A stretch of DNA of 64,000 nt from Candidatus Atribacteria bacterium (GTDB lineage: Bacteria; Atribacterota; Phoenicimicrobiia; Phoenicimicrobiales; Stramentimicrobiaceae): NCBI GenBank assembly GCA_029553585.1, contig JAKPKS010000167.1, positions 1 to 64,000 of the forward strand, given 5' to 3'. How positions within the stretch are numbered: the stretch's first letter is position 1; each line of letters starts with the position of its first letter. Positions 1,876 through 28,500 of the stretch are shown piece by piece. The translations under genes and the position numbers were made by a program. Under the pieces are notes generated by a model, which was given only the letters and a program-made list of their open reading frames with translations, was not told where the DNA came from and did not search any database.

Positions 1876-4800
1876 TTAAAAGGAAAGGCCTATCCGTCCA
1901 TAAAAACGGGCTGGTAGGGGTTCACTAATTGCTTTACCAATTCCCAGAGATAATAGCAAGGGTTCTGTATATCTTAGTTTTAAAGTAAATACAATCTCTC
2001 CACCCATGGAAATCTTAATATCCTCAAAAGAGGGCAACAATGTCTCATTCCAGACCTGTCCAGCCTCTAAAAACAGTGTTCCTGAAACTTGTTCTAAAAA
2101 GACAGATACCGCATGGAAACCAATTTTACGTTCTGGTTTTTTTAGCGGAAAGCGATACTCCAATGAGCCAAGCAAAAGATTATTACCTGCAAAAGAGGAA
2201 GAGGGGAACCCTCTTAAAGAAAAATTTTTGGTATTTACTGAGCTAAGGTTTTGAGCCGAAATACTTCCACCTAAACTGAATTGTCTTTCTTCATTTTCCT
2301 GGTTGGAAAGATGGCCAGCTACCAGCCGTAAAGCTACAACCTGGTGGGAATGAGGCAGTGAGAAATATTTACGGCTATCAAAGAGGAATTTGTGAAAGGT
2401 AGTCTCAGAATCTGGGAATGGTAATCCATATTGATAGCTGAGAGAATAAGAATTACCTAATTCGGGACTGGAAGACCATTGATATTTTTCGGTATCATTG
2501 TAAGCATATCTTAACAACAAAGAATTAATCAGGGTAGAGTCTTTTAGTGGAAGCTCAGCCTGTGGCTCCTGGTTTGCCCATAAATATTCACTCTGTACCC
2601 CTATAGAAAAATTTCTGGAGAAAAGGCGGCCAGAATCTCCCTGAGAAGTATAACCACTATCATTAAATCTTAAGGTTAATTGGAACTCGGTGTAAGAAGA
2701 GGTTTCGCCCTCCCATGATAATGATAAAGATGGTTCATTAATATAGCTATAAAGCTGGCAGCTATAAAATAAGGAATCATAAAAAGGGCTATAAGCAATA
2801 GTAGCCGGGATCTGGTAAAATTCCAGATAGTCCTGAGCCTGAGCGGAAAGACCCAGGTAAAGGTTATTTTCAATGATACCGAAATAAGGAACCCAGTAAG
2901 TGGGAAGAATGCTATTCCTGGGTGAGTATTTTTTTAAGGTATAGCCGGGGTCGTATCTGGAAGTGATTTTAGCTAATTTTGAGCGGGTATTTTCTTCATT
3001 ATTCATAGGCTGCATTTCAGGAAAATAGACCTTATCATTTTTTAGAGCCGGGAGAATGATAGAGGGGGTTATCTCAGGTTTTTCCACTGATTCCCAGAGC
3101 AAATCATCGCTTTTTACCAAATGCAATTCATAGCCAGAAGAATGGTATTGTATATAAGCCAGGTCTTTGCTATCTGGAGCGATAGCAGGTTCAAAGGCAC
3201 CGGTAACTACATTGGTTAACTGGAAGAGTTTTTCATCTGCTAAAGAATAAGCATAAATATTATATATACCACTGCGGTCAGAACAAAAATAAAGGTATTT
3301 ACCATCACCTGACCAGCAAGGGTTAATATCTGTATATCGATCAATTGCAATTGGTCTGATAGATTGTATGGTAAAGTAATTATCAAAGGTAATTATATAA
3401 ATATCCTGGTATCCTTTGTGCCACAAAGAAAGAGCAAGCTGGTTACCCCGGGGCGACCAGACCGGTTGAGAGATTTGAGTTCCATCGTTAAAATCGGTTA
3501 GATAAATAAGATCAGAAGAGGTAATTATTTCTGGCTGATCGAATTTTCCGTCCAGTAAAGGGGTTTTTAGAGAAAATAAGACCAGGTTATTGGTGCCAGC
3601 CTGATTGATAATGGCAGCTGCTCTGCCTGCGGCAGGGTCAGGATACCAGGACGGGTCTTTGATCCTCAACTTTTCGGTAAGCTGGAATTGCTTACCACTA
3701 TTTAAATGATACAAGAATAGGTCCTGGTAGGAATAATACTGGTCATACTGGACCAGCTTGCTATAAAGAAGGTATTGGGAGTCTGGTGAAAAAGAGTAAG
3801 AGGTACCAAGTCCCGCTGTCCGTTTTACAACAACACTTTCTTTTTGAGAGTTCAGGTTATATTTACGAATAGTGGGATAAAGATGTGGAGTAAAAACTTT
3901 ATAAACCAGAAAGGTATTCTGAAGGGTATTATCTACTATCCAGGAAGGTTTCTCAACCCAGTATCGATGGTTGGTAATTTGCTGTGATTCTGTAATTTTA
4001 TGAGCAGAAATAATTTGTTCAATTTGTTGGTTAAAGTAATGCTCTTTTTCCTCCTGCCATTGCTGATATAGTTCTTCCTGAGTGATGCCTAATATCTTTT
4101 TTAAAGCCCAATCCATCCCTGATAGGGGAAATGAGGAAAACTGTTCACTGATAGCAATTAATTTTTCTTCTCCATAGTGGCTGGCAATATAATGAACCAG
4201 TGATTGCCCATAAATATAGGGTATATTCCCTCCTGGCCAGGAGACCAGGTAACTTCCCTCTAACAGTGCGGGGTTTTTTATACTGTTTTCCATAAAATCA
4301 GTTCTGAGGTACATCTCATATCTGTTATCTGTGAGGCGGCCACCGGTATTCAGTCTACTCTCATTATAAATAGCCAATCCTTCAATAGACCAGAGAGGCT
4401 GTAAAGCATTGGGGGTTATAATCTGACCTAAAAAAAAGTGCAGAAATGTGGTTATTTTATCAGTCATATCAAAATGAGCCAAGTGCGTATATTCATGTGC
4501 TAACAAGATTCTGAGCCAGCTTTCAAACTTTGTATCAAAAATTTCCGGTCCGGGTACAGTCAGATTCACTCTGATGAGACGATGAGGCATGGTAGTGGCA
4601 AAACCATAGGCAGAATCACTGAAATCTTCCAAAATAATGGTAAATCTCTTATTTTTGTGGAAAGGTTCTCCAAACTGCGGGGTTATCTGGGAATATACCT
4701 CATCAGCTAAGTTAGCAATATGAAGGGCAATATGATCATAGGTTGTATCATAATCAATTAAAATACCTGCTGGAAAGATTACTGAACAATACCTGCCATC

Positions 4801-4965
4801 CAACACTGTCCAGTCAAGTGATGTGTCATAATTTTTACTGTGAGCAACATTTGGTGAAAAATTATTAAAAACCAGGCCTGATAGCGCATAGAATAGTAGC
4901 AGGGAGAAGAAGAAAACAAGGAATAAAAAAACCTTCTTTTTAAAGAATCTTTTAAAATTTCCCAT
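1876..4965 (-). CDS. Secreted zinc metallopeptidase with beta-propeller and C-terminal outer-membrane barrel
   Basis: This 1029-residue protein has three parts. A signal peptide (residues 1-30, hydrophobic) is followed by a gluzincin-type peptidase domain with HEYTH at residues 157-161 and WSIEG with Glu195 as probable third zinc ligand. Residues about 330-660 carry TolB/PD40-type propeller repeats, such as PCWSGDGKYLYFCSDRSG. The last 350 residues alternate as expected for beta-strands and end in RIGLSF, with a terminal Phe as in outer-membrane barrels of the bacterial surface antigen (Omp85-like) type. It probably acts at the outer membrane; the substrate is unknown. A GAGGT Shine-Dalgarno precedes the ATG and a strong promoter lies 28-56 bp upstream. 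Domain names are by pattern only; the barrel is the least certain part. Confidence 0.8.
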   Translation of the reverse strand: MGNFKRFFKKKVFLFLVFFFSLLLFYALSGLVFNNFSPNVAHSKNYDTSLDWTVLDGRYCSVIFPAGILIDYDTTYDHIALHIANLADEVYSQITPQFGEPFHKNKRFTIILEDFSDSAYGFATTMPHRLIRVNLTVPGPEIFDTKFESWLRILLAHEYTHLAHFDMTDKITTFLHFFLGQIITPNALQPLWSIEGLAIYNESRLNTGGRLTDNRYEMYLRTDFMENSIKNPALLEGSYLVSWPGGNIPYIYGQSLVHYIASHYGEEKLIAISEQFSSFPLSGMDWALKKILGITQEELYQQWQEEKEHYFNQQIEQIISAHKITESQQITNHRYWVEKPSWIVDNTLQNTFLVYKVFTPHLYPTIRKYNLNSQKESVVVKRTAGLGTSYSFSPDSQYLLYSKLVQYDQYYSYQDLFLYHLNSGKQFQLTEKLRIKDPSWYPDPAAGRAAAIINQAGTNNLVLFSLKTPLLDGKFDQPEIITSSDLIYLTDFNDGTQISQPVWSPRGNQLALSLWHKGYQDIYIITFDNYFTIQSIRPIAIDRYTDINPCWSGDGKYLYFCSDRSGIYNIYAYSLADEKLFQLTNVVTGAFEPAIAPDSKDLAYIQYHSSGYELHLVKSDDLLWESVEKPEITPSIILPALKNDKVYFPEMQPMNNEENTRSKLAKITSRYDPGYTLKKYSPRNSILPTYWVPYFGIIENNLYLGLSAQAQDYLEFYQIPATIAYSPFYDSLFYSCQLYSYINEPSLSLSWEGETSSYTEFQLTLRFNDSGYTSQGDSGRLFSRNFSIGVQSEYLWANQEPQAELPLKDSTLINSLLLRYAYNDTEKYQWSSSPELGNSYSLSYQYGLPFPDSETTFHKFLFDSRKYFSLPHSHQVVALRLVAGHLSNQENEERQFSLGGSISAQNLSSVNTKNFSLRGFPSSSFAGNNLLLGSLEYRFPLKKPERKIGFHAVSVFLEQVSGTLFLEAGQVWNETLLPSFEDIKISMGGEIVFTLKLRYTEPLLLSLGIGKAISEPLPARFYGRIGLSF

Positions 4966-4992
4966 TATTACCTCAAAATTTTATACTTATCC

Positions 4993-5021
4993 ATTATATC
5001 TTTTTTTTAAAACTGTTACAA
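4993..5021 (-). promoter_or_regulatory. Sigma-70-type promoter for the metallopeptidase gene
   Basis: Read on the minus strand, TTGTAA and TATAAT are separated by exactly 17 bases, and the expected start of transcription is some 20 bases before the ATG at 4965. The -10 hexamer is a perfect match to consensus. Confidence 0.7.
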
Positions 5022-5157
5022 TAAAGTAGTTATAAAGCAAGTTTTAGATATCTTTAAGTACCCCAGTAAATTTTACACTAACGTAATATTTCAGTAATTA
5101 TATTATTCAGATAAAATAAAAAAAGTTACTAAACAGAATGGAGTCAATGGTAGTTAG

Positions 5158-6288
5158 ATGGTAAAAAAAGAAAAAATAAAAAAGAAAAAAATTACATCAA
5201 AAAAGAAATGGTTTGACCTTATTTTTTATACGGTCAGTGCCATTATTATTGTGATATTGCTGTTTATTGGTTTGAGACAGAGGGGCCTTTTGCCATTGTG
5301 GATAGATAATCAGCCTTCTGCTCAGGTAGGCAGACTTACAGAAGAGGTTAGAGCCAGGCGGCAAAATTTTAATATTATCAATGCCCATGAACATGTGCAA
5401 AATGAAGAATGCCTGCCGCTTTTGAGAAAAGCTATGGGGGATTGTCAGGTTCAGAAAATGGTAATGCTGGGGACCCCTGATTTTACCTTTTTCCTTAAAA
5501 CTGAATACGGTTTTACCGGATATGAAAAGAACAACGATTTTATCGTCAAACTAAGCCAGGATTACCCTAATGAATTCGCTGCCCTGGCGACCTTAGACCC
5601 CCTGGATGATCATAAGACTGAAAAATTAAGAAAGTATAAAGAAGAAGGGATAGCTGGTGTTAAGCTCTATAATGGTCATGGCACCTTTTATGATTTATTC
5701 TTTAAAATGTCTTTGATTGATGCAGGAATGATGGAAATATATGCATTTTGTGAACAGGAACAACTACCCATACTTTATCATATCAATGCAGGACGTTTTT
5801 TGACTGATTTTGAACATATTTTACAGGAATTTCCCAATTTAATTATTATAGCTCCTCATTTTATGATGTCTACCAGCAATCTGAACCGTTTAGACCGTTT
5901 TATGAGAGAATACCCCCAACTATATCTAGACATCAGTTTCGGCCATCCCGACTTTTTAGTAGCTGGTTTTGACCGAATTTCTAATTTCCATAAGGATTTT
6001 CGTGATTTTGTAATAAAATACCGGGACAGAATAACCTATGGTACCGACTTAGTAGTAACTACCTACCTGGCAAAAAGCAGGGCTTATATTGATGATGTAC
6101 AGTTAGCTTATATGGATTTATTGGAGAAAGAAGAGTTTAAATTACCACCTAGTATATATAATATGATGTCTCGAGGAGCTGCTAAAAATATAGATATCAA
6201 CAGGATTTACCATGGCTTAAATTTAGATGAAGAGACTTTAAAAATGATTTATCATGACAATGCAGAGAAGCTATTCTTTAAAGGATAA
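5158..6288 (+). CDS. Membrane-anchored amidohydrolase (amidohydrolase-2 type)
   Basis: A very lysine-rich N-terminus (residues 1-18) is followed by one membrane segment (about 20-39), so the catalytic domain is probably anchored on the outer face of the inner membrane. The rest fits the metal-dependent amidohydrolase-2 (TIM barrel) family: HEH at 77-79, Lys169 in GVKLYNG, His208 in LYHINAG, His234 in APHFM and Asp297 in YGTDLV are the expected metal ligands and catalytic residues in order. The substrate is unknown; relatives include decarboxylases and hydrolases. It is transcribed divergently from the metallopeptidase gene. A possible weak promoter (TTTACA at 5072, 17-base spacer) lies in between. 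The start has only a weak Shine-Dalgarno. Confidence 0.75.
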   Translation: MVKKEKIKKKKITSKKKWFDLIFYTVSAIIIVILLFIGLRQRGLLPLWIDNQPSAQVGRLTEEVRARRQNFNIINAHEHVQNEECLPLLRKAMGDCQVQKMVMLGTPDFTFFLKTEYGFTGYEKNNDFIVKLSQDYPNEFAALATLDPLDDHKTEKLRKYKEEGIAGVKLYNGHGTFYDLFFKMSLIDAGMMEIYAFCEQEQLPILYHINAGRFLTDFEHILQEFPNLIIIAPHFMMSTSNLNRLDRFMREYPQLYLDISFGHPDFLVAGFDRISNFHKDFRDFVIKYRDRITYGTDLVVTTYLAKSRAYIDDVQLAYMDLLEKEEFKLPPSIYNMMSRGAAKNIDINRIYHGLNLDEETLKMIYHDNAEKLFFKG

Positions 6289-6426: not shown

Positions 6427-7371
6427 TTGGTCTTTTTTTTAACGGCTTTAGTGGCTTTTTTTATTTCCTATATTATAACCCCATTTATTGCCAGATTAGC
6501 AAAAAAACAGGAGCTGGTGGATAAACCCGGCTATCGCAAAATACATAATGATGCAATCCCTAATCTGGGGGGTATAGTAATCTTTTTTGGGTTTTTGGTT
6601 AGTATTTTTTTGTTTGTATTACTTAGTAGGCAAGTACAGGCCTTAATTGCCGGCTGTATTATCATTTTATTATTGGGAATAATAGATGATATTGCCGACT
6701 TAAAACCCCTCCGGAAATTCACCATTCAGATGATACCAGCCCTACTATTCCTGGTTTATCATCATGAGACAATTAATCAATTTATAGTACAGAAACTCGC
6801 TTTTTTAAATATGGCAGGGTATCTTCTTTACCCAATATTGTTATTATGGATGGTCGGTATTACCAATTCTATTAATCTTATCGATGGTTTGGATGGGTTG
6901 GCTTCGGGAATATCTATAATCTCCTTGATTACATTTCTAATAATTGGATTTTCAGTCAATAAGGAATATATGCCTTATAATTTATTAAATGCTGCACTAT
7001 TAGGAAGTATGGTAGCTTTGTTCCGCTATAACTTCTATCCAGCTCAGATATTTTTAGGAGATTCGGGCAGCACGTTTTCTGGATTTTTGTTATCTGCTAC
7101 TACGATTTTATTGGTAATATGGTCTGGAAAATTATTATTCCTAACAGTTCCGGTCCTAGTTTTAGCACTACCCATAACAGATACTCTTTTTGCTATCTGG
7201 CGCAGATACCGAAGTCATAAATCAATTTTTCAGGCAGATCAGGGACATTTACACCATCGTCTACTGAATCGTGGTATTAATCACCGTAATGTCGTTTTAA
7301 TCTTATTGTCTATCAGTGGGGTTTTTAGTTTGCTGGCGTTAGGTATAGCTGTAGTGCTTTTAAAACACTGA
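6427..7371 (+). CDS. Undecaprenyl-phosphate sugar-1-phosphate transferase (MraY/WecA/TagO family)
   Basis: Integral membrane enzyme that puts a phospho-sugar (in WecA/TagO, GlcNAc-1-P) onto undecaprenyl phosphate, the first step in making surface polysaccharide or teichoic-acid-like polymers. Visible family motifs are RKIHNDAIPNLGG near residue 37, IIDDIADL near 84, NLIDGLDG near 150, FLGDSGS near 212 and GHLHHRLLNRG near 278, with about ten hydrophobic segments. The histidine motif HLHHR is of the WecA rather than the MraY type. The start is a TTG 12 bases after GGAG. An epimerase and a WecG-type transferase follow, consistent with one lipid-linked glycan pathway. Confidence 0.88.
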   Translation: MVFFLTALVAFFISYIITPFIARLAKKQELVDKPGYRKIHNDAIPNLGGIVIFFGFLVSIFLFVLLSRQVQALIAGCIIILLLGIIDDIADLKPLRKFTIQMIPALLFLVYHHETINQFIVQKLAFLNMAGYLLYPILLLWMVGITNSINLIDGLDGLASGISIISLITFLIIGFSVNKEYMPYNLLNAALLGSMVALFRYNFYPAQIFLGDSGSTFSGFLLSATTILLVIWSGKLLFLTVPVLVLALPITDTLFAIWRRYRSHKSIFQADQGHLHHRLLNRGINHRNVVLILLSISGVFSLLALGIAVVLLKH

Positions 7372-7413
7372 TTAATATTATAAATAGCATTTTTATAAAA
7401 TAAGGAAAAAACA

Positions 7414-8403
7414 ATGGAGCGGAAAAAAAAGGAAAAGGTGCTGGTTACCGGAGGAGCTGGATTTATTGGATCACATATCGTGGATCTCTTAATTCAGCAG
7501 GGGTATGAGCTGATAATTATTGATGATCTATCCTCAGGAAAAAAGGAAAATATTAATCCCCAAGCCCGATTTTACCAGATAAACATCAATGATTCTGCCT
7601 TACAGGAAGTTTTCAACATGGTAAAACCGGATTATGTTTGTCATCAAGCTGCTCAAATAAGCGTTTCATATTCAGTTGCTCATCCCAGGTCAGATGCACA
7701 GGTTAATATTGTAGGATTGTTAAGCTTGTTAGAGATTGCATTTAAAAATAAGGTAAAGGGTTTTGTCTTTGCCTCCAGTGGCGGTACTGTTTATGGAGAA
7801 CAACAAACATTTCCAATTACCGAAAACAGCCCACTACACCCTGCTTCTCCTTATGGTATTTCCAAGATGACCTCTGAGTTTTATTTAAATTTTTTTTATC
7901 AAACCCACAGGTTGAACTATATTTCTCTACGCTACGGTAATGTTTTTGGGCCAAGACAGGATCCCTCGGGAGAAGCGGGGGTTGTTGCTATTTTTATTGG
8001 GAAAATGCTGAAAGGAGAGACTCCCACCATCAATGGAGATGGTGAATATATCAGGGATTATGTTTATGTAAAAGATGTTGCCCGGGCTTGTTTACTCAGT
8101 ATAAAAAATATGGTAGAATTAGCAGAGTTAAAAAAAATAAAAAGGTTGAATCAAGCTTTTCAGGCTGTCAATATTGGGACCGGTAGGGGAGTATCGGTAA
8201 ATCAACTATATTCCTATTTGCAGGATATACTCGGATTTCCCCAAGAGGCACATTACGGTCCTCCTCGTGTCGGTGATTTAAGGAAAAATATCCTGGATAG
8301 CCATCTGGCAGAACAAGTTCTGGGATGGAAAGCGCAGTATGGTTTGGCAGAGGGGTTACGGGAAACGGCACAATGGTTAAAGCAAATAGAACAGCTTAAT
8401 TAG
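7414..8403 (+). CDS. NAD-dependent sugar epimerase (GalE-like)
   Basis: Extended short-chain dehydrogenase/reductase of the UDP-glucose 4-epimerase type. The Rossmann motif GGAGFIGSHIVD lies at about residue 13, the dinucleotide-contact region IIDDLSSGK near 36, SSGGTVYG near 122 and the catalytic YGISK near 148. At 329 residues the length is normal. It probably makes the nucleotide sugar (UDP-galactose or UDP-GalNAc/GlcNAc type) used by the flanking glycosyltransferases; the actual substrate cannot be told from sequence. It lies 42 bases after the WecA-like gene and 79 bases before the WecG fusion. Confidence 0.83.
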   Translation: MERKKKEKVLVTGGAGFIGSHIVDLLIQQGYELIIIDDLSSGKKENINPQARFYQININDSALQEVFNMVKPDYVCHQAAQISVSYSVAHPRSDAQVNIVGLLSLLEIAFKNKVKGFVFASSGGTVYGEQQTFPITENSPLHPASPYGISKMTSEFYLNFFYQTHRLNYISLRYGNVFGPRQDPSGEAGVVAIFIGKMLKGETPTINGDGEYIRDYVYVKDVARACLLSIKNMVELAELKKIKRLNQAFQAVNIGTGRGVSVNQLYSYLQDILGFPQEAHYGPPRVGDLRKNILDSHLAEQVLGWKAQYGLAEGLRETAQWLKQIEQLN

Positions 8404-8482
8404 AACTGAGTATTTTAATTAAATTTTCCAGTAAAAAAACATTCTATCTCTATTCTTTATTTAAAATATTGGGGAGGGGCTT

Positions 8483-21226: not shown

Positions 21227-24200
21227 GTGAAAATTAGGTTCATTTTTTTAAACTGGCGGGAAAATAGATTGCAGAATCCCTCTAAAACTTTATTGAATAA
21301 ATTATTATTACATTGCCTATTTTCGATCTGCATCATAATATTATTCTGTACTGCTCTTACCCTTTCTTCCACTGCATCAGAAATAAACAGTTTTGCGGTA
21401 TATTATTTTGACAACCTGACAGGAAAGGATGATTGGGATTGGTTGGAGAGAGGTTTACCTGATATGTTGAGCCATACTTTTTCTCAATCAGAGAAAATAG
21501 ATTTCGTTTCTCTGGAAGAAATAGAAAAATTACCAGAAATCGATTTATACCAAAGATTAACAGTGGGCAGAGACTTAAATCTGTTCGGTTCTCTAAGTGA
21601 TTTATTAAAAACTGACCTACTTTTTACCGGTTATTTTACTCTTGAACAGAGAGACATACTCAAGTTTAATCTGGTTATGTACCAATCTAAGTCTGATCAA
21701 CTATTTGAATTCCGGGAAATGACCATCATACCGGAAGATCTATTCTACTTAAAAGAACATATTGCCCAGACTATTTTACAGGAAACCAATTTATATATTG
21801 ATGAGGATTTAGCTCTTAACCTGAAAAAGAATATTTCCACCTCTTTGGTAGCTTTAAGGTATTACTATCTGTCTCTGGAATTAAAAAACCAGGCTACAAC
21901 CGAATATCAGGGGATAGACTTTCCCAGCAAACCACTCTGGTCTAAGGCCATTGAATATGGAGAAAAAGCTGTAGCCGAGGATCCTCATTTTGCTGAAGCA
22001 TACTATCTGCTATCCCAGATCTACGAAAAGACGAAATGGACCGCCCGTGAAATAGTGAGCCTGGAAAATTTTATTGAAGTTGCTCAAAATAATAGCAATA
22101 TTAAAATAAGTTATCGAAGACTTTCAGAAGCTCTCTATCGCTTAGCCTATTCAAATTATGAGCAGGGAAAGACTGCTTCTACTATTCAAAACCTTACTGA
22201 TTCTGTTTTTTATCAGCCAAATAACATTAAAGCTAGAATCTTGCTGATGAGAATTTATTATGAATCAGGGCAGACTGACAAAGCACTGGAACAGGGAGAA
22301 GAAATAAAAAAGATAGAGCCAGACCGGGATATTGATTGGGTGGTGAGTCAGTATCAACAGGCTGAAATATATGGCAGAGAAGCTTATGAACTGTATGTCA
22401 CAGGGTATAATGCCTATAGTAACAAAAAGTGGCCGGAAGCTATTGAATTCTTTAAATTAGCTATAAACCTCAGTAAGGATTTCAAGGGGGCCAATTATTT
22501 TTTAGGATTGAGCTATTATCATGCGGGGGATTTAAATAACTCTATTAAATATCTGGAAGCCACGGTCCGTTTAGACCCTTTTGACAATAATGCCCGCATA
22601 TATTTGAATAAAGCGATGGAAGAAAAAGAATTTGGCAGAGAAGCAGTCTGGATTTTTAACCAGGGTTATAAATATTATACTGAGGGAGAATATCAGGATG
22701 CCTTACTGAAGTTTAAAGAATCGGTTCAAATAAACCCCAATTTTGAAAAAACCAGGATCTACTTAATGCGTACTTACTACCATCTAAATCAGATGGAGGA
22801 ATACCTGGCAGAAAGAGAGCGAATAGGCGGGGATCAGGCCTTTGATGTCGATTGGGAGAAGGAATATTATCAGTTAGCTTATAACTTTTATTCTCTGGGC
22901 GAATATGCAAAAGCCCTGGAAAAATTGAGAGAAGTGCTGGCAATCAATCCTGATTTTTTAGAAGCCAGATTCCTTATGGCTGAAACTGCCTATGAATTGG
23001 GAGATTATGGAGAAGCAAATCAACATTATCAATATATAATAGATAATTACGGAGAGAGCCAGTATTATGAAAATTCCTTATTAGGTAATGGCTGGACCGC
23101 TTATTTATTGGGAAATTATCAACAGGCTGAAATCGATTTAGAGTTACTAATTAAAAACTTTCCCAGAAGTACCCTTTATTTAGAGGGAGTTTATAAATTA
23201 GGAAGAATATATTTTGCACAGAAGAAGTATTCCCAGACTATTAACCTTTATGAAAATCTATCAACTGTTGATCCTCTGAAATTTGATAAATTTGAAATTG
23301 AATACATCTTAGGACAATCCTACTTCTGGGAAGGTTTGTATGATAAAGCTAAGGGTTATTTTACAGATATTATGAATAACAACCCTTCCTTTGAATTAAT
23401 TAATGAAACTAAGTATCATTATAGTTTTACACTATTTAAAGAGGGTAAATATCAAGAAGCAATGGTAATTCTGGAGGAATTGGCCAAAAAGGAAAGCCAG
23501 GTTAAGGTGGAAGCCCAATATCTGTTAGCCAGGGTATTGTTAGAACAAAAAGATTATGACCGGGTAATTGACATTGACAGTTCCTTAGCTGAACAGAACA
23601 TCGATGGTAGTATATTGGAAAAGGTGTTGTTTGATTTAGGTTTGGCTTACGCTAGAAAAGGTCAGGACCAGGAAGCATCCGCTTATTTTGAAAGGGTTGT
23701 CCGTCAGTTTCCGGCAGGAGAGCTCTCAACCATTGCTACTCAGGAACTGGCTCAAAGTTACTATCAGCTGACACAATATCAGGATGTATTGAATATATTG
23801 GAAAACATTAACAGTCAGGAAGCAATAGAACTTAAGATTGAGGCAGCCCGAAAAATAAATAATGAGGAAAAGTTGCTTTCTCTCTATCAGGATTTAACCG
23901 AGCAAACAGCAGATGATGCTATGGTCAGGGAGGGCTATTTCAGCTTGGCTAAAGATAAATATGAGAAAGGGGCCTATCAGGAAGCCGCAGACCTTTTTAA
24001 AAAGGTAGAGAATACTGTTAACACTGATAAGATGAGACAAGAGATTAATTACTGGCAGGGCCTCTGTTATTATCGTTTGGCTGATTATTTCCAGGCTGAA
24101 GAGTATTTCCATAGTATTAATTATTTTGCTGGTGATGAGGTAGCCATAAGAGCTTTATATATGTTAGGGGAAACTTACTATAAACAAGATAAATATTCAG

Positions 24201-24838
24201 AAGCAATACACTATTACCAGGAATTTCTTAAATATTATAGTTCCCATTCTTTAGCTGCGCATGTACAGTACAGCGTGAGCTGGAGCTATCTGAATCTTCG
24301 CGATTATCCCTTAGCTTTGGAATCATTTGGCAGGCTCGTTCAGGATTATTCTGAGAGTCAGTTTTCAGAGGAAGGTAACTATCTCTTGGGTAAGATACAG
24401 TTTTTAGTAAAAAATTATAATGAAGCCAGAGCAAAAATACAGGATTTTGTAAAGAATCATCCTATGAGTCAATTTGCTGAAGAGGGCATTTATATTTTGG
24501 CACAGATTGACCTGGAAGAGCAGGAATGGTTTGATAGTATTATAAATTTTGAAAAATTATTGGATCGTTTCCCCGATAGTAAATATATTCCAAATTCTTT
24601 ATATGGACTTTGCCTGAGTTACTTTAAAAAAGGGGAATATGAAAAAGCGGTACAGGTCGGAGACAGATATCTGAAAGACATTCCTACCGGCGTATTGGTA
24701 TGTGATATCTTATATATTACTGCTCTGTGCCAGGAAGAGCTAGGTAATGAACTACAGGCAAATCAAAAATATGAAATGATTATCAAAAACTGTCCTGAAT
24801 CATCTTATGCAGATTTTGCCAGAAAGAAATCAGAATAA
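21227..24838 (+). CDS. Giant secreted TPR protein with CsgG/FlgO-like N-terminal domain
   Basis: A 1203-residue protein with a membrane segment or signal peptide at about residues 26-48, then a domain with FAVYYFDNLTG near 57 and FTGYF near 138, resembling the CsgG/FlgO-type nucleoside-binding-like periplasmic fold, and after residue about 215 a very long run of tetratricopeptide repeats (patterns such as AEAYYLLSQIYEK, ANYFLGLSYYHAGDL, YYRLADYFQAEEYF). It probably works as a periplasmic or outer-membrane scaffold. ExbB, ExbD and a TonB-like protein follow, suggesting a joint envelope machine, similar in layout to Tol-Pal with its TPR protein CpoB. GTG start, with AAAGGAAG upstream. Function is inferred from context. 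Confidence 0.72.
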   Translation: MKIRFIFLNWRENRLQNPSKTLLNKLLLHCLFSICIIILFCTALTLSSTASEINSFAVYYFDNLTGKDDWDWLERGLPDMLSHTFSQSEKIDFVSLEEIEKLPEIDLYQRLTVGRDLNLFGSLSDLLKTDLLFTGYFTLEQRDILKFNLVMYQSKSDQLFEFREMTIIPEDLFYLKEHIAQTILQETNLYIDEDLALNLKKNISTSLVALRYYYLSLELKNQATTEYQGIDFPSKPLWSKAIEYGEKAVAEDPHFAEAYYLLSQIYEKTKWTAREIVSLENFIEVAQNNSNIKISYRRLSEALYRLAYSNYEQGKTASTIQNLTDSVFYQPNNIKARILLMRIYYESGQTDKALEQGEEIKKIEPDRDIDWVVSQYQQAEIYGREAYELYVTGYNAYSNKKWPEAIEFFKLAINLSKDFKGANYFLGLSYYHAGDLNNSIKYLEATVRLDPFDNNARIYLNKAMEEKEFGREAVWIFNQGYKYYTEGEYQDALLKFKESVQINPNFEKTRIYLMRTYYHLNQMEEYLAERERIGGDQAFDVDWEKEYYQLAYNFYSLGEYAKALEKLREVLAINPDFLEARFLMAETAYELGDYGEANQHYQYIIDNYGESQYYENSLLGNGWTAYLLGNYQQAEIDLELLIKNFPRSTLYLEGVYKLGRIYFAQKKYSQTINLYENLSTVDPLKFDKFEIEYILGQSYFWEGLYDKAKGYFTDIMNNNPSFELINETKYHYSFTLFKEGKYQEAMVILEELAKKESQVKVEAQYLLARVLLEQKDYDRVIDIDSSLAEQNIDGSILEKVLFDLGLAYARKGQDQEASAYFERVVRQFPAGELSTIATQELAQSYYQLTQYQDVLNILENINSQEAIELKIEAARKINNEEKLLSLYQDLTEQTADDAMVREGYFSLAKDKYEKGAYQEAADLFKKVENTVNTDKMRQEINYWQGLCYYRLADYFQAEEYFHSINYFAGDEVAIRALYMLGETYYKQDKYSEAIHYYQEFLKYYSSHSLAAHVQYSVSWSYLNLRDYPLALESFGRLVQDYSESQFSEEGNYLLGKIQFLVKNYNEARAKIQDFVKNHPMSQFAEEGIYILAQIDLEEQEWFDSIINFEKLLDRFPDSKYIPNSLYGLCLSYFKKGEYEKAVQVGDRYLKDIPTGVLVCDILYITALCQEELGNELQANQKYEMIIKNCPESSYADFARKKSE

Positions 24839-24973
24839 ACCCAGACAAGTCAGAAAGAATATAAACTAAATAAAATTTTTAGAGAATGAACTATAAATAT
24901 ATAGATTATTAACAAGATATAATATAATTAAAAGTTAAAGAAATCTTATAACTTTAGAGGAGGCAACTGGTTA

Positions 24974-25645
24974 ATGTTTGAAATGTTTTATAAAGGCGGT
25001 TTTTTAATGTACCCCATTTTTTTCTGCTCCTTGCTGGCTATTGCCATTTTCTTTGAAAGAATGTTTTATCTTAGGAGCATTAAAACTTCTACCCGCAAAT
25101 TTAGCAGTCGTATTAGTGACCTGATCAGGAAAGGAAATATTAATTATGCGATTACTGCCTGCCGTAAAAATTATTCCCCTATCTCTCAAATAATTTTGGC
25201 AGCTTTATTGAAATATGGCAGTTCCAGAGATGAAATCAAAGAAGCAATCGAAGATACTGCCAACCAGGAGATAGCTGTTTTGGAAAAAAATTTGCCAATA
25301 CTGGCTACTGTGGGGAATATTGCCCCTCTATTGGGATTATTAGGTACCGTTTTCGGTATGATAAAAGGATTCCAGGTAATTTCTATAGTGGGTGTTGGTA
25401 ATCCTGAAGCTCTGGCTGGTGCTATTTCTGAGGCATTATTAACTACTGCTTTTGGTCTTTCGGTAGCTATTCCCACCATAGTTGCTTACAATTATCTCAA
25501 CAACAGGGTGGAGAGACAGGTCAAAGAGATGGAGGCAACCAGTATAGAAATATTAGATCTTTTATCATCAAAAAGAGAAATTAAAGAGGAGGATGTAAAA
25601 ATAGATGAAATTTTATCATCCCAATACCAAGACTCTGAAATTTGA
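24974..25645 (+). CDS. exbB: MotA/TolQ/ExbB proton channel protein
   Basis: Inner-membrane proton channel subunit that, with ExbD, uses the proton gradient to drive a TonB- or TolA-like protein. There is a membrane segment at residues about 12-30, a cytoplasmic loop, and two more segments (about 110-135 and 155-180). The family motif LPILATVGNIAPLLGLLGTV runs near residues 104-123, and FGLSVAIPTIVAYNYL near 167. At 223 residues the length is normal. GGAGG lies before the ATG. The end overlaps the start of exbD by 41 bases, implying translational coupling. Confidence 0.9.
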   Translation: MFEMFYKGGFLMYPIFFCSLLAIAIFFERMFYLRSIKTSTRKFSSRISDLIRKGNINYAITACRKNYSPISQIILAALLKYGSSRDEIKEAIEDTANQEIAVLEKNLPILATVGNIAPLLGLLGTVFGMIKGFQVISIVGVGNPEALAGAISEALLTTAFGLSVAIPTIVAYNYLNNRVERQVKEMEATSIEILDLLSSKREIKEEDVKIDEILSSQYQDSEI

Positions 25646-26012
25646 TTTAACTCCCTTAGTTGATGTTGTGTTTCAACTACTCCTTTTTTTCATGTTAACC
25701 ACTACCTTCATAAATGTGGAGAGTGGTGTTAAAGTTGATCTGCCCAGTGGCGATTTTGCTGCAGTAAAAGAACAGAAAAATGTAGTGGTTACTATTACTG
25801 AAAATAATGTACTTTATATCAATAATCACTTAATAGATCCTAATTCTTTATCTGAAAAGATAAAAGAAGAGATTAAGAATAATACCAATTCTTTAGTTGT
25901 TTTGGAAGCAGATCAAAATATAACCCATGGGAAAGTGGTTAGAGTTATGGACCTGATTAAAAAAGGTGGGGCAGAAAGGATTGCCATAGCTACAAAGCCC
26001 AGGGAAAATTGA
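25605..26012 (+). CDS. exbD: ExbD/TolR family protein
   Basis: Partner of ExbB in the proton-driven channel. Residues 14-22 carry FDLTPLVDVVFQLL with the conserved membrane aspartate (Asp20) that takes up protons, within the single membrane segment; the remaining 90 residues form the periplasmic domain (VVVTITENNVLYINN). At 135 residues the length is normal. The start lies inside the end of exbB with GAGGATG upstream. It is followed by the TonB-like gene. Confidence 0.9.
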   Translation: MKFYHPNTKTLKFDLTPLVDVVFQLLLFFMLTTTFINVESGVKVDLPSGDFAAVKEQKNVVVTITENNVLYINNHLIDPNSLSEKIKEEIKNNTNSLVVLEADQNITHGKVVRVMDLIKKGGAERIAIATKPREN

Positions 26013-26055
26013 CTTGTACAAATTAAAATAGTTTATAAGGTGATTAAAAGCAATA

Positions 26056-27540
26056 ATGACAGGATATAGAGCACAAAGAAAAAAGTTACGTTCAAAAGGG
26101 TTTTTAGGGCGTTCATTTCTAATTTCCATAATTCTTAATATAATATTCATACTGGTTTTTAATAATCTCATTTCTTTTGAACTTATTAATATTCCAGAAC
26201 TGGAAGATATTATTATGGTAACTATGGTTGAACTGCCTTCTATAAAAAATCCCACTACGGTAAGGCCTGAGATTACCAGAGAAGAACCAGTTGCCGAGAC
26301 CAGTGTCAGGCCGAGAGTGGAACCCGCCTTACCAGAGCCGGCTAGAATACAAGAAACTGAAACAAAGCCATTGGTAGAAAAAAAAGAGATGGTAGTAGAA
26401 AGCAGTCCCAGGGTAGAAGTTAAAATGCCTGAAATTGATATTCCAGCCAAAGAGGAAGTAGCTCAAATTAAAGAGGAGATATCCATCATACCTGATGTAC
26501 AAATTGCCGCCCGAGACTTAACCCCCAGTATTGCCAGCAGGAGAGAGATAGAAGGAGAGGTGCTGGAAAGAGGCGAATTTGAAATACAGGCCAGACTGGG
26601 CTTAGCGGGACAAGAGCGAATTGAATCTACCTATGGAACCATCGTTACCCCAGGGGAATTAAGTACTTTACCAAGGACTGCAGAAAAAGAATCTCCTTTT
26701 GACCAGAGGCCATTAGCTATTATGATTGATAATGCTAATAATTCCCGGCCACAAAGTGGACTGGACAAGGCCAATATTGTTTATGAAGTACTGGCAGAAG
26801 GTGGTATAACACGTTTTTTAGCCATTTTTGCTACCCAGGATGCTGGCAAAGTTGGTCCTATCCGTAGTGCCAGACCCTATTTCATTACTAAAGCCCTGGA
26901 ACACAATGCTATTTACGTGCATGCCGGAGAAAGTCCTGATGCCGCCATATTTATAAAAGAAGAAAGAATAGATGATATCAATGAACTGGTTCATTATCAA
27001 CCTTTCTGGAGAATTCCGGAGCGAAAACCTCCCCATAATCTATATGCTTCTACTGAACAGCTTAGAGGGGAAGCAAAAAGGCTGGGGTATATTGAAATGG
27101 TTAATAGGGGTGATTATCAATTTGAAATTGACTCCAAAGAACAATTAACAGGCAAAGAAGTTCAAAAGATAGATATCAGATACAATGCTAATTACACTGT
27201 CAGTTATAAATACAATCCTGAGATTCAGAGATATATTCGTTTTATCAATAATGAGCCTCATATTGATCAGGAAACTGGTCAGCAGTTGCAAGTTAAGAAT
27301 CTTGTAATCCAGCACAGTGACAAAAAGATACTGGATAGTGAAGGCAGGCTGGCAGTTGATTTTATCGGCAAGGGAACGGGAATAATTATTTATAATGGCA
27401 GATCAGAAGAAATAACCTGGTCTAAGGAGTCTTTGAGATCAAAAACCTTCTTTTATAACAAAGAAGGCAATAGATTAGCTATACAACCTGGTAATGTTTG
27501 GATACAGGTAATACATCCTGATACTGAAGTTAATTATTAA
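26056..27540 (+). CDS. TonB-like N-terminus fused to YerB (DUF3048) domain
   Basis: Residues 1-16 are basic, followed by a membrane segment (about 20-40) and a proline/glutamate-rich stalk (about 60-145), the layout of TonB or TolA. From residue about 213 the protein is a DUF3048 (YerB) domain: RPLAIMIDNANNSRPQSG, VYEVLAEGGITRFLA and GPIRSARPYF are clear, and the C-terminal YerB half runs to the end. YerB is a lipoprotein in Bacillus of unknown function; I know of no described TonB-YerB fusion. No TonB C-terminal domain is present. It lies 43 bases after exbD, so the pair should energise it. Family recognition is firm; role is inferred. Confidence 0.78.
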   Translation: MTGYRAQRKKLRSKGFLGRSFLISIILNIIFILVFNNLISFELINIPELEDIIMVTMVELPSIKNPTTVRPEITREEPVAETSVRPRVEPALPEPARIQETETKPLVEKKEMVVESSPRVEVKMPEIDIPAKEEVAQIKEEISIIPDVQIAARDLTPSIASRREIEGEVLERGEFEIQARLGLAGQERIESTYGTIVTPGELSTLPRTAEKESPFDQRPLAIMIDNANNSRPQSGLDKANIVYEVLAEGGITRFLAIFATQDAGKVGPIRSARPYFITKALEHNAIYVHAGESPDAAIFIKEERIDDINELVHYQPFWRIPERKPPHNLYASTEQLRGEAKRLGYIEMVNRGDYQFEIDSKEQLTGKEVQKIDIRYNANYTVSYKYNPEIQRYIRFINNEPHIDQETGQQLQVKNLVIQHSDKKILDSEGRLAVDFIGKGTGIIIYNGRSEEITWSKESLRSKTFFYNKEGNRLAIQPGNVWIQVIHPDTEVNY

Positions 27541-27576: not shown

Positions 27577-28500
27577 ATGAATGTTAAAATTAATGCAGAA
27601 AACAATAATCAGCAAAAGGATTTAATAGAATACTTTTTAGAATACCTAACTCTGGAAAGAGGTCTATCATTTAATACAGTTACTTCCTATCGTTTTGATT
27701 TATTAAAATACTATGAATTTGTTGTTCTCAAAAAACAACTTACTTTTCAGGAAGTTGACCGGGAAATCATTGCTCAATATTACCATTATTTAAACCAGAT
27801 AAAATTAGCCATTAATTCTATTTTTCGCAATCTGGTGGCTCTAAAAATGTTTTATCGCTTTTTACTATCAGAAAGATATATAGAGAATGATTTAGCTCTA
27901 TATATCGAATTCCCTAAATTAACTAAGAAGTTACCGGAAGTATTGAATTTGAAAGAATTGGATAAATTATTAGCGGAAAAAAATTTTAAGGGATTGATTG
28001 GCAAAAGAGACCAGGCTATAATTGAGCTTTTATATGCCACCGGAATCAGGGTAACCGAATTGATTAATTTGAAAAGAAATGATATTAATCTTGACCATCA
28101 ATTATTAAAGTGTATCGGCAAGGGAAATAAGGAAAGGTGGATTCCATTTACCGAAAGAGTGCAGAAAGTTTTACTCGATTACCTGCAAACAATCAGACCA
28201 AAATTTAAAAAAAGAAAAGAAACAGATCGATTGTTTTTAAACAATCAAGGTCAGCCAATCAGCAGACAGTCCATTTTTTATTTAGTTAAAAAATATGCTC
28301 AGGAATCGGGAATCAGAAAAAATGTGACGCCACATACCCTAAGGCATACTCTGGCAACTCATTTAATAGAAAATGGAGCAGACCTGAGAACAGTGCAGGA
28401 AATGTTAGGACATTCGGATATCTCTACCACTCAGATATATACCCACGTTAGTAGAAAATGGATTAAAGATGAATATTTTAAAGCTTTTCCCAGAATATAG
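27577..28500 (+). CDS. xerD: Tyrosine recombinase XerC/XerD
   Basis: Site-specific recombinase that resolves chromosome dimers at dif. The SAM-like N-terminal DNA-binding domain (residues about 13-100) precedes the catalytic domain with all expected residues: Arg158 in YATGIRVTEL, Lys182, His253 and Arg256 in TPHTLRHTLA, His279 in LGHSDIS and the nucleophile Tyr288 in TTQIYTHV. At 307 residues the length is normal. No mobile-element features flank it, and it lies directly before punA, so a chromosomal Xer rather than an integrase is likely. XerC versus XerD cannot be settled by eye. Confidence 0.88.
   Translation: MNVKINAENNNQQKDLIEYFLEYLTLERGLSFNTVTSYRFDLLKYYEFVVLKKQLTFQEVDREIIAQYYHYLNQIKLAINSIFRNLVALKMFYRFLLSERYIENDLALYIEFPKLTKKLPEVLNLKELDKLLAEKNFKGLIGKRDQAIIELLYATGIRVTELINLKRNDINLDHQLLKCIGKGNKERWIPFTERVQKVLLDYLQTIRPKFKKRKETDRLFLNNQGQPISRQSIFYLVKKYAQESGIRKNVTPHTLRHTLATHLIENGADLRTVQEMLGHSDISTTQIYTHVSRKWIKDEYFKAFPRI

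Follow-up and report, generated by a model that had tools for sequence, protein, structure and literature searches.

A candidate proton-driven envelope machine built around a YerB-type force transducer in the Atribacterota

What could a YerB (DUF3048) domain be doing at the end of a protein that seems to be anchored and energised like TonB? The question is raised by four consecutive genes at 21227-27540 of the window, i.e. the whole 64,000-nucleotide stretch of contig JAKPKS010000167.1 analysed here, which belongs to a metagenome-assembled genome (MAG) of the Atribacterota, a little-known phylum of bacteria from deep sediments. An earlier note had described them as encoding a CsgG/FlgO-like TPR scaffold, the ExbB/ExbD proton-channel pair and a fusion with a TonB-like anchor that ends in DUF3048 instead of a TonB domain. 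All four open reading frames were recovered at that place and on that strand; ExbB, ExbD, DUF3048 and TPR score above their Pfam cut-offs (25 bits each for DUF3048 and DUF3048_C), and DUF3048 with DUF3048_C are the only domains that Pfam finds in the fusion. Taken together, the four genes probably make up one trans-envelope machine driven by the proton motive force. While the host MAG, 89% complete, carries 6.65% contamination, this is of no concern for the cluster, since it lies on a 72-kb contig and relatives share its gene order; among public records, the closest is a MAG of Candidatus Atribacteria (L032), whose transducer is 83% identical. For comparison, the phylum was sampled with 50 genomes, most of them MAGs, and other phyla with 336 genomes, one per species.

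Motor, anchor and coupling

In TonB and TolA, the Ser-x3-His residues contact ExbB/TolQ in cryo-electron microscopy, TonB Ser16/His20 reaching ExbB Ser34/Trp38 (PMC12215075). The D-box of TonB, 45-ISVTMVT-51 in E. coli, alternates hydrophobic and hydrophilic residues between flanking prolines, and two periplasmic domains of ExbD capture it between them (PMC12215075, PMC10907165). Both elements have counterparts in the YerB transducer (Table 1). Across an alignment of 30 transducers, the window's included, drawn from six families with identity down to about 33-38%, the serine of the transmembrane helix (TMH) is invariant and position +4 is Asn in 29 sequences and His in one, the Leu and second Ser of the SHLS motif being lost. 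From this Ser to the D-box there are 29 residues in the window, as in E. coli TonB, 29 in 21 of the 30 sequences and 28-31 in all of them. Ser24, Asn28/His and the D-box are thus retained while the remaining helix and the stalk drift, the latter holding 8-11% Pro and 14-21% Glu in sampled relatives, with a conserved patch near residues 181-214. As for the Asn, a TonB in which His20 is changed to Asn is fully functional according to the title of Swayne and Postle (2011), as cited in PMC8928145.

The likeness extends to profile comparison, where the transducer N-termini match TonB N-termini by hhalign at 81% (E 1.2e-5) and three control sets of N-terminal membrane segments reach 0.1-0.4%; the compared segments were centred on Ser-x3-N/H, which raises the score somewhat, and the D-box played no part in their selection. 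Besides, the transducer has no lipobox and carries S-x3-N in its TMH instead. To judge from these motifs, the anchor is a genuine motor coupler of the TonB type, in keeping with the TonB/TolA-like anchor of the earlier note. A plain signal peptide followed by a stalk, which that note had named as the reading that would speak against it, is ruled out by S-x3-N/H, the D-box and the TonB profile match, both motor contacts of TonB being present.

Regarding the motor itself, the window ExbB was aligned to solved TolQ and ExbB, and ExbD to solved ExbD (7ajq/6tyi). ExbB Ser19 in TM1, the channel threonines Thr125 and Thr158 and Pro167 in TM3 are invariant among 28 relatives, the TM1 assignments being made by motif position rather than by structure, and the essential membrane Asp of ExbD, Asp20 (25662-25664), is invariant across the phylum. 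The best curated models for the two proteins are tolQ and tolR, both below cut-off. In a tree, the Ton-type ExbB proteins of these genomes group with 100/100 support in one clade, apart from the YerB-type ones, the monophyly of all of which is not resolved; since the Ton-type proteins stand in a clade of their own, the YerB cluster appears to own a dedicated motor. Family f5 has two exbB-exbD pairs, identical to the letter, that flank the TPR gene (exbB-exbD-tpr-exbB-exbD-yerB): in L048 (G029) the pair at 3660-4807 has its copy at +4748, and in L056 (G034) the one at 1897-2969 has its copy at +4692. Either gene conversion took place recently or the assembly is at fault; a genuine repeat is suggested by the fragments of ExbD with which contigs end in G026 and G027.

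On these grounds, ExbB and ExbD would form a proton-driven motor, of the 5:2 type by homology, on which the transducer TMH would dock with Ser24 and Asn28 at the positions of TonB Ser16/His20, the ExbD dimer gripping the D-box strand (residues 53-59). Proton flow would then turn or pull ExbD, and the Pro/Glu stalk would carry the force into the periplasm. Motor, docking and force transfer are together held with high confidence, the parts and coupling motifs being read from the sequences and the force taken from homologous systems.

Conservation of the locus across the phylum

A fusion-type DUF3048 protein occurs in 44 of the 50 phylum genomes (with one of the frames no longer than 324 aa), and the loss from close relatives that the earlier note had set against its own proposal did not occur. 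The gene exbD lies directly upstream of the transducer in 38 of these 44; the other six loci, L145 and L146 among them, are at contig ends, so that adjacency holds in 38 of the 38 assessable genomes. The order TPR-exbB-exbD-transducer is constant and, because it is kept across the phylum, the cluster is not due to chance. Upstream of it, one half of the phylum has rplU-rpmA-obgE; the other half has phosphate transporter genes of the pst type, and in most of its loci lgt follows as well. This near-universal conservation at a single locus beside housekeeping genes suggests a core role in the envelope.

The same evidence bears on the simplest alternative, namely that the transducer merely anchors YerB to the inner membrane and that exbBD serve another partner. 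YerB is a plain lipoprotein in most outside genomes, so anchoring alone could suffice; nevertheless, a passive tether is very unlikely when Ser24, Asn28/His and the D-box persist despite the drift of helix and stalk, exbD is adjacent in every assessable genome, and the Ton-type operon has a separate ExbB lineage.

Outside the phylum, DUF3048 was found in nine of the 336 genomes, mostly on lipoproteins, and in general the domain otherwise sits mainly on cytoplasmic-membrane lipoproteins. As to the neighbourhood survey proposed in the earlier note, ExbD adjoins DUF3048 in the phylum, and tblastn found neither ExbB nor ExbD near it in any of the nine DUF3048-bearing genomes of the outside sample. 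Since these outside proteins are mostly lipoproteins and none stands beside ExbB/ExbD, the most parsimonious account from the sequences is that YerB was ancestrally lipid-anchored and that, in the atribacterial stem, a TonB-type coupler took the place of its lipid anchor. One outside genome (L097, G168) encodes at 6546-8405 a secreted DUF3048 protein of 619 aa whose long stalk is rich in Pro, Ala and Val, with no ExbBD nearby.

The features of the locus are collected in Table 1. The xerC/xerD-type recombinase gene is a conserved downstream neighbour and is not considered part of the machine. A promoter and terminator scan gave counts near those expected from shuffled sequence (45 promoters against 37.8, 4 terminators against 7.2) and was not used.

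Table 1. Features of the YerB-type transducer locus and its immediate surroundings in the window
Feature	Position	Strand	Basis or remark
Secreted CsgG/FlgO-like and TPR protein, 1203 aa	21227..24838	+	Open reading frame list, Pfam TPR
CsgG/FlgO-like domain of the TPR protein, about residues 52-195	21380..21811	+	hhalign
Shine-Dalgarno-like AGAGGAGG, just 5' of exbB	about 24956-24963	+	
ExbB/TolQ-type proton-channel subunit, 223 aa	24974..25645	+	MotA_ExbB 7.4e-36
ExbD/TolR-type stator, 135 aa	25605..26012	+	ExbD 7.9e-30; 41 bp overlap with exbB
YerB-type force transducer, 494 aa	26056..27540	+	Pfam DUF3048 and DUF3048_C
Transmembrane anchor, residues about 16-42	26101..26181	+	TonB N-termini profile match
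S24 and N28	26125-26127; 26137-26139	+	Ser and His positions of the TonB SHLS motif
D-box IMVTMVE, residues 53-59	26212..26232	+	Putative ExbD-binding strand by homology; flanking prolines P47 and P61
Peptide carrying the transducer D-box: NIPELEDIIMVTMVELPSIK			
Pro/Glu-rich periplasmic stalk, residues about 62-205	26239..26670	+	
DUF3048 N-terminal domain, residues 211-345	26686..27090	+	Pfam 8.5e-47, 159.5 bits
DUF3048 C-terminal domain (DUF3048_C), residues 372-483	27169..27504	+	Pfam 1.1e-30, 106.8 bits
xerC/xerD-type tyrosine recombinase	27577..28500	+	36 bp from the transducer

Target, partner and envelope role

If the motor pulls, on what does the YerB domain take hold? The domain is DUF3048 throughout the transducers, with no vWA fold; it scores 8.9e-48 in the profile search of the genome and matches PDB entry 2psb at E 3.2e-44, which is also the sole significant structural match by Foldseek, no new functional analogue having emerged. 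When the fusions are set beside ten standalone DUF3048 proteins (mostly lipoproteins of genomes outside the phylum), 39 of the 73 YerB-domain residues that are invariant among the fusions are at least 80% conserved in the standalone proteins, and the conserved segments (RPQSGL, E-x3-EGG-x-TR, GP-x-RSAR, H-x-G-x-S and PPHNLY among them) have the look of a ligand site common to both groups. A scan of viral contigs for DUF3048 relatives, which would have deepened the alignment, returned none. Because YerB also occurs in monoderms, without an outer membrane (DUF3048 is present in B. subtilis), its target is more probably part of the wall, or a periplasmic partner close to the membrane, than a dedicated receptor in the outer membrane.

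A second, short DUF3048 protein (311-340 aa), with an N-terminal hydrophobic segment and with neither stalk nor ExbBD, was found in loci L059-L068 of genomes G001, G003, G010-G013, G018-G020 and G022, which also carry the long fusion elsewhere. Its neighbours, as read from the sequences, are hemolysin/CBS-type membrane proteins, a TRAP transporter, cytidine deaminase, recO and glyQS, and these neighbourhoods give no hint of a ligand.

A single hydrophobic stretch at the N-terminus of the TPR partner (residues 20-53) is taken to be a signal peptide. In line with the earlier note, the region that follows resembles CsgG proteins by hhalign (97.8%, E 7.7e-13; 60.7% against TolB_N; controls 0.1%). 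Pfam sees no CsgG in the window protein itself and detects it in two of 19 orthologues (best 1.2e-4), as it does TolB_N (two of 19, best 0.0078), one orthologue passing the CsgG cut-off in the genome search. The repeats run to the C-terminal end, with Pfam TPR families up to 2.6e-59; the best curated match there is YbgF/CpoB (TIGR02795, 204 bits for a cut-off of 90), a score inflated by summing over seven repeat stretches. Orthologues upstream of exbB measure 1159-1248 aa in complete relatives. The CsgG-like domain could also point to a secretion or motility motor, in which the ExbBD-transducer unit would drive a surface system via this protein, like AglRQS or type IX motors; same-order vWA transducers have indeed been tentatively linked to gliding (PMC12204202). 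Such a function is quite unlikely in view of the loci, none of which has gliding or secretion genes adjoining the cluster, and of the core envelope role suggested by its setting.

Concerning Ton and Tol-Pal, TonB_C was detected in 10 of the 50 phylum genomes and TolB_N in none, the TolB_N search being positive in controls and in six of 11 outgroups and the TonB_C search likewise in its controls and outgroups. Ordinary Ton operons with a TonB-dependent receptor, TonB, ExbB and ExbD exist in some genomes, where TonB keeps its His (S-x3-H) and TonB_C; since TonB_C is found in just 10 genomes, the classical operon may be mobile or often lost in the phylum. In the host genome, a PF03544 search places TonB_C solely at a separate Ton locus, L104 (G000:C199, 701-6046), which comprises a 632-aa receptor, TonB, ExbB and ExbD, then a transposase-like gene (352 aa). 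In a distant genome, L140 (G051, 4177-6168, reverse strand) encodes ExbB, ExbD and a TonB-like S-x3-H transducer of 305 aa to which TonB_C was not matched, making it a candidate for a further divergent C-terminal domain. Elsewhere in the window (1876-4965, reverse strand), a 1029-aa secreted protein has Peptidase_MA-like and PD40 (TolB-type propeller) matches; its C-terminus may be an outer-membrane barrel, and the protein may belong to the OMP-TolB-like group from which TolB has been proposed to descend (PMC12204202).

The absence of any other recognised transducer from most phylum genomes, together with the TonB-type motor-coupling module, would suit a Ton-like importer, in which the YerB domain binds the periplasmic face of an outer-membrane transporter or secretin that the transducer pulls open. 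This is unlikely, given that no locus has a receptor gene beside the cluster, that the TonB-dependent receptors in the examined loci are paired with their own TonB, ExbB and ExbD, and that DUF3048 also belongs to monoderms such as B. subtilis, which have no outer-membrane receptor.

For the proposed machine, the YerB domain would rather be a grip whose target is common to the standalone membrane-anchored YerBs, most likely peptidoglycan or a wall-associated component; the secreted CsgG-like/TPR protein would serve as dedicated periplasmic scaffold or receiver, and the whole would maintain outer membrane and wall in place of Tol-Pal, which seems to be missing from the phylum. Target, receiver and envelope role are together put forward tentatively, at somewhat less than even likelihood. 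It is doubtful, if conceivable, that the YerB transducer is a phylum-wide functional replacement of Tol-Pal, pulling directly on the wall and perhaps helping to organise the disputed multilayer envelope of Atribacter laminatus.

Several points weigh against the proposal. AlphaFold2 applied to the YerB domain with an input of three sequences gave a mean pLDDT (predicted local distance difference test) of 49.6, with confidence in the C-terminal half only, and because this model is poor a peptidoglycan target goes without structural support; the literature searched on DUF3048/YerB yielded a lipoproteome study that assigns no function. Ile/Leu stands at the position of ExbB Trp38, which holds for the Ton-type ExbB of these genomes too. 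Six genomes have no fusion, five of them 60-80% complete and one (G035) 90%. Pal was absent beside the motor in the loci examined, and an OmpA domain is present in 27 of the 50 genomes, so a Pal-like protein may yet exist.

Were the proposal to hold, a further class of non-TonB C-terminal domain would be added to the TonB-type transducers, and the Ser-x3-His/Asn plus D-box module is indicated as a portable unit that fits unrelated grips. The YerB family, of unknown function with a structure solved since 2007, would gain a mechanistic context, and a core envelope machine would be named for a phylum in which TolB is undetected and TonB rare, suggesting an unstudied way of exerting mechanical force on the cell envelope. 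In the cultured Atribacter laminatus there are three membrane-like layers whose identity is unsettled (PMC7736352); as the transducer would be expected in the cytoplasmic membrane, the energised one, its localisation would help to tell which layer is which.

Likenesses to known systems

With Tol-Pal, the cluster shares a motor, a transducer expected to span the periplasm and a TPR protein, the C-terminus of which matches YbgF/CpoB with the repeat-inflated score given above; compared with TolQ-TolR-TolA-TolB-Pal-CpoB, it has no TolA/TonB C-terminal domain, TolB is missing from the locus and, as judged by TolB_N, from the phylum, and Pal is missing from the locus. The earlier note saw a resemblance to Tol-Pal in the gene order; the order fits the TPR-TolQ-TolR-transducer arrangement of the vWA systems better, and TolB_N is absent from the phylum. 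The YerB/DUF3048 lipoproteins (PDB 2psb) have the complete two-domain DUF3048 in common with the fusion, which differs from their lipid anchoring by its putative motor-coupled TonB-type anchor and long stalk.

The resemblance to Ton lies in ExbB and ExbD with channel Thr and membrane Asp, the Pro-rich stalk, the N-terminal TMH with Ser-x3-(His/Asn), and the pattern and spacing of the D-box (PMC12215075, PMC10907165), while DUF3048 replaces TonB_C, no receptor gene is nearby, Asn mostly stands for His and a giant TPR partner is added. The closest known kind is that of the vWA force transducers, encoded in the order TPR-TolQ-TolR-transducer (Williams-Jones et al., 2025, PMC12204202), a study that lists Atribacteria only among TonB-bearing taxa and does not mention YerB/DUF3048. 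Gene order, an SHLS-type TMH, a motor box, a disordered stalk and a non-TonB C-terminal domain are common to both; the vWA fold is there set against DUF3048 here, and two TolR-like genes, as is often the case there, against the single ExbD of the YerB cluster.

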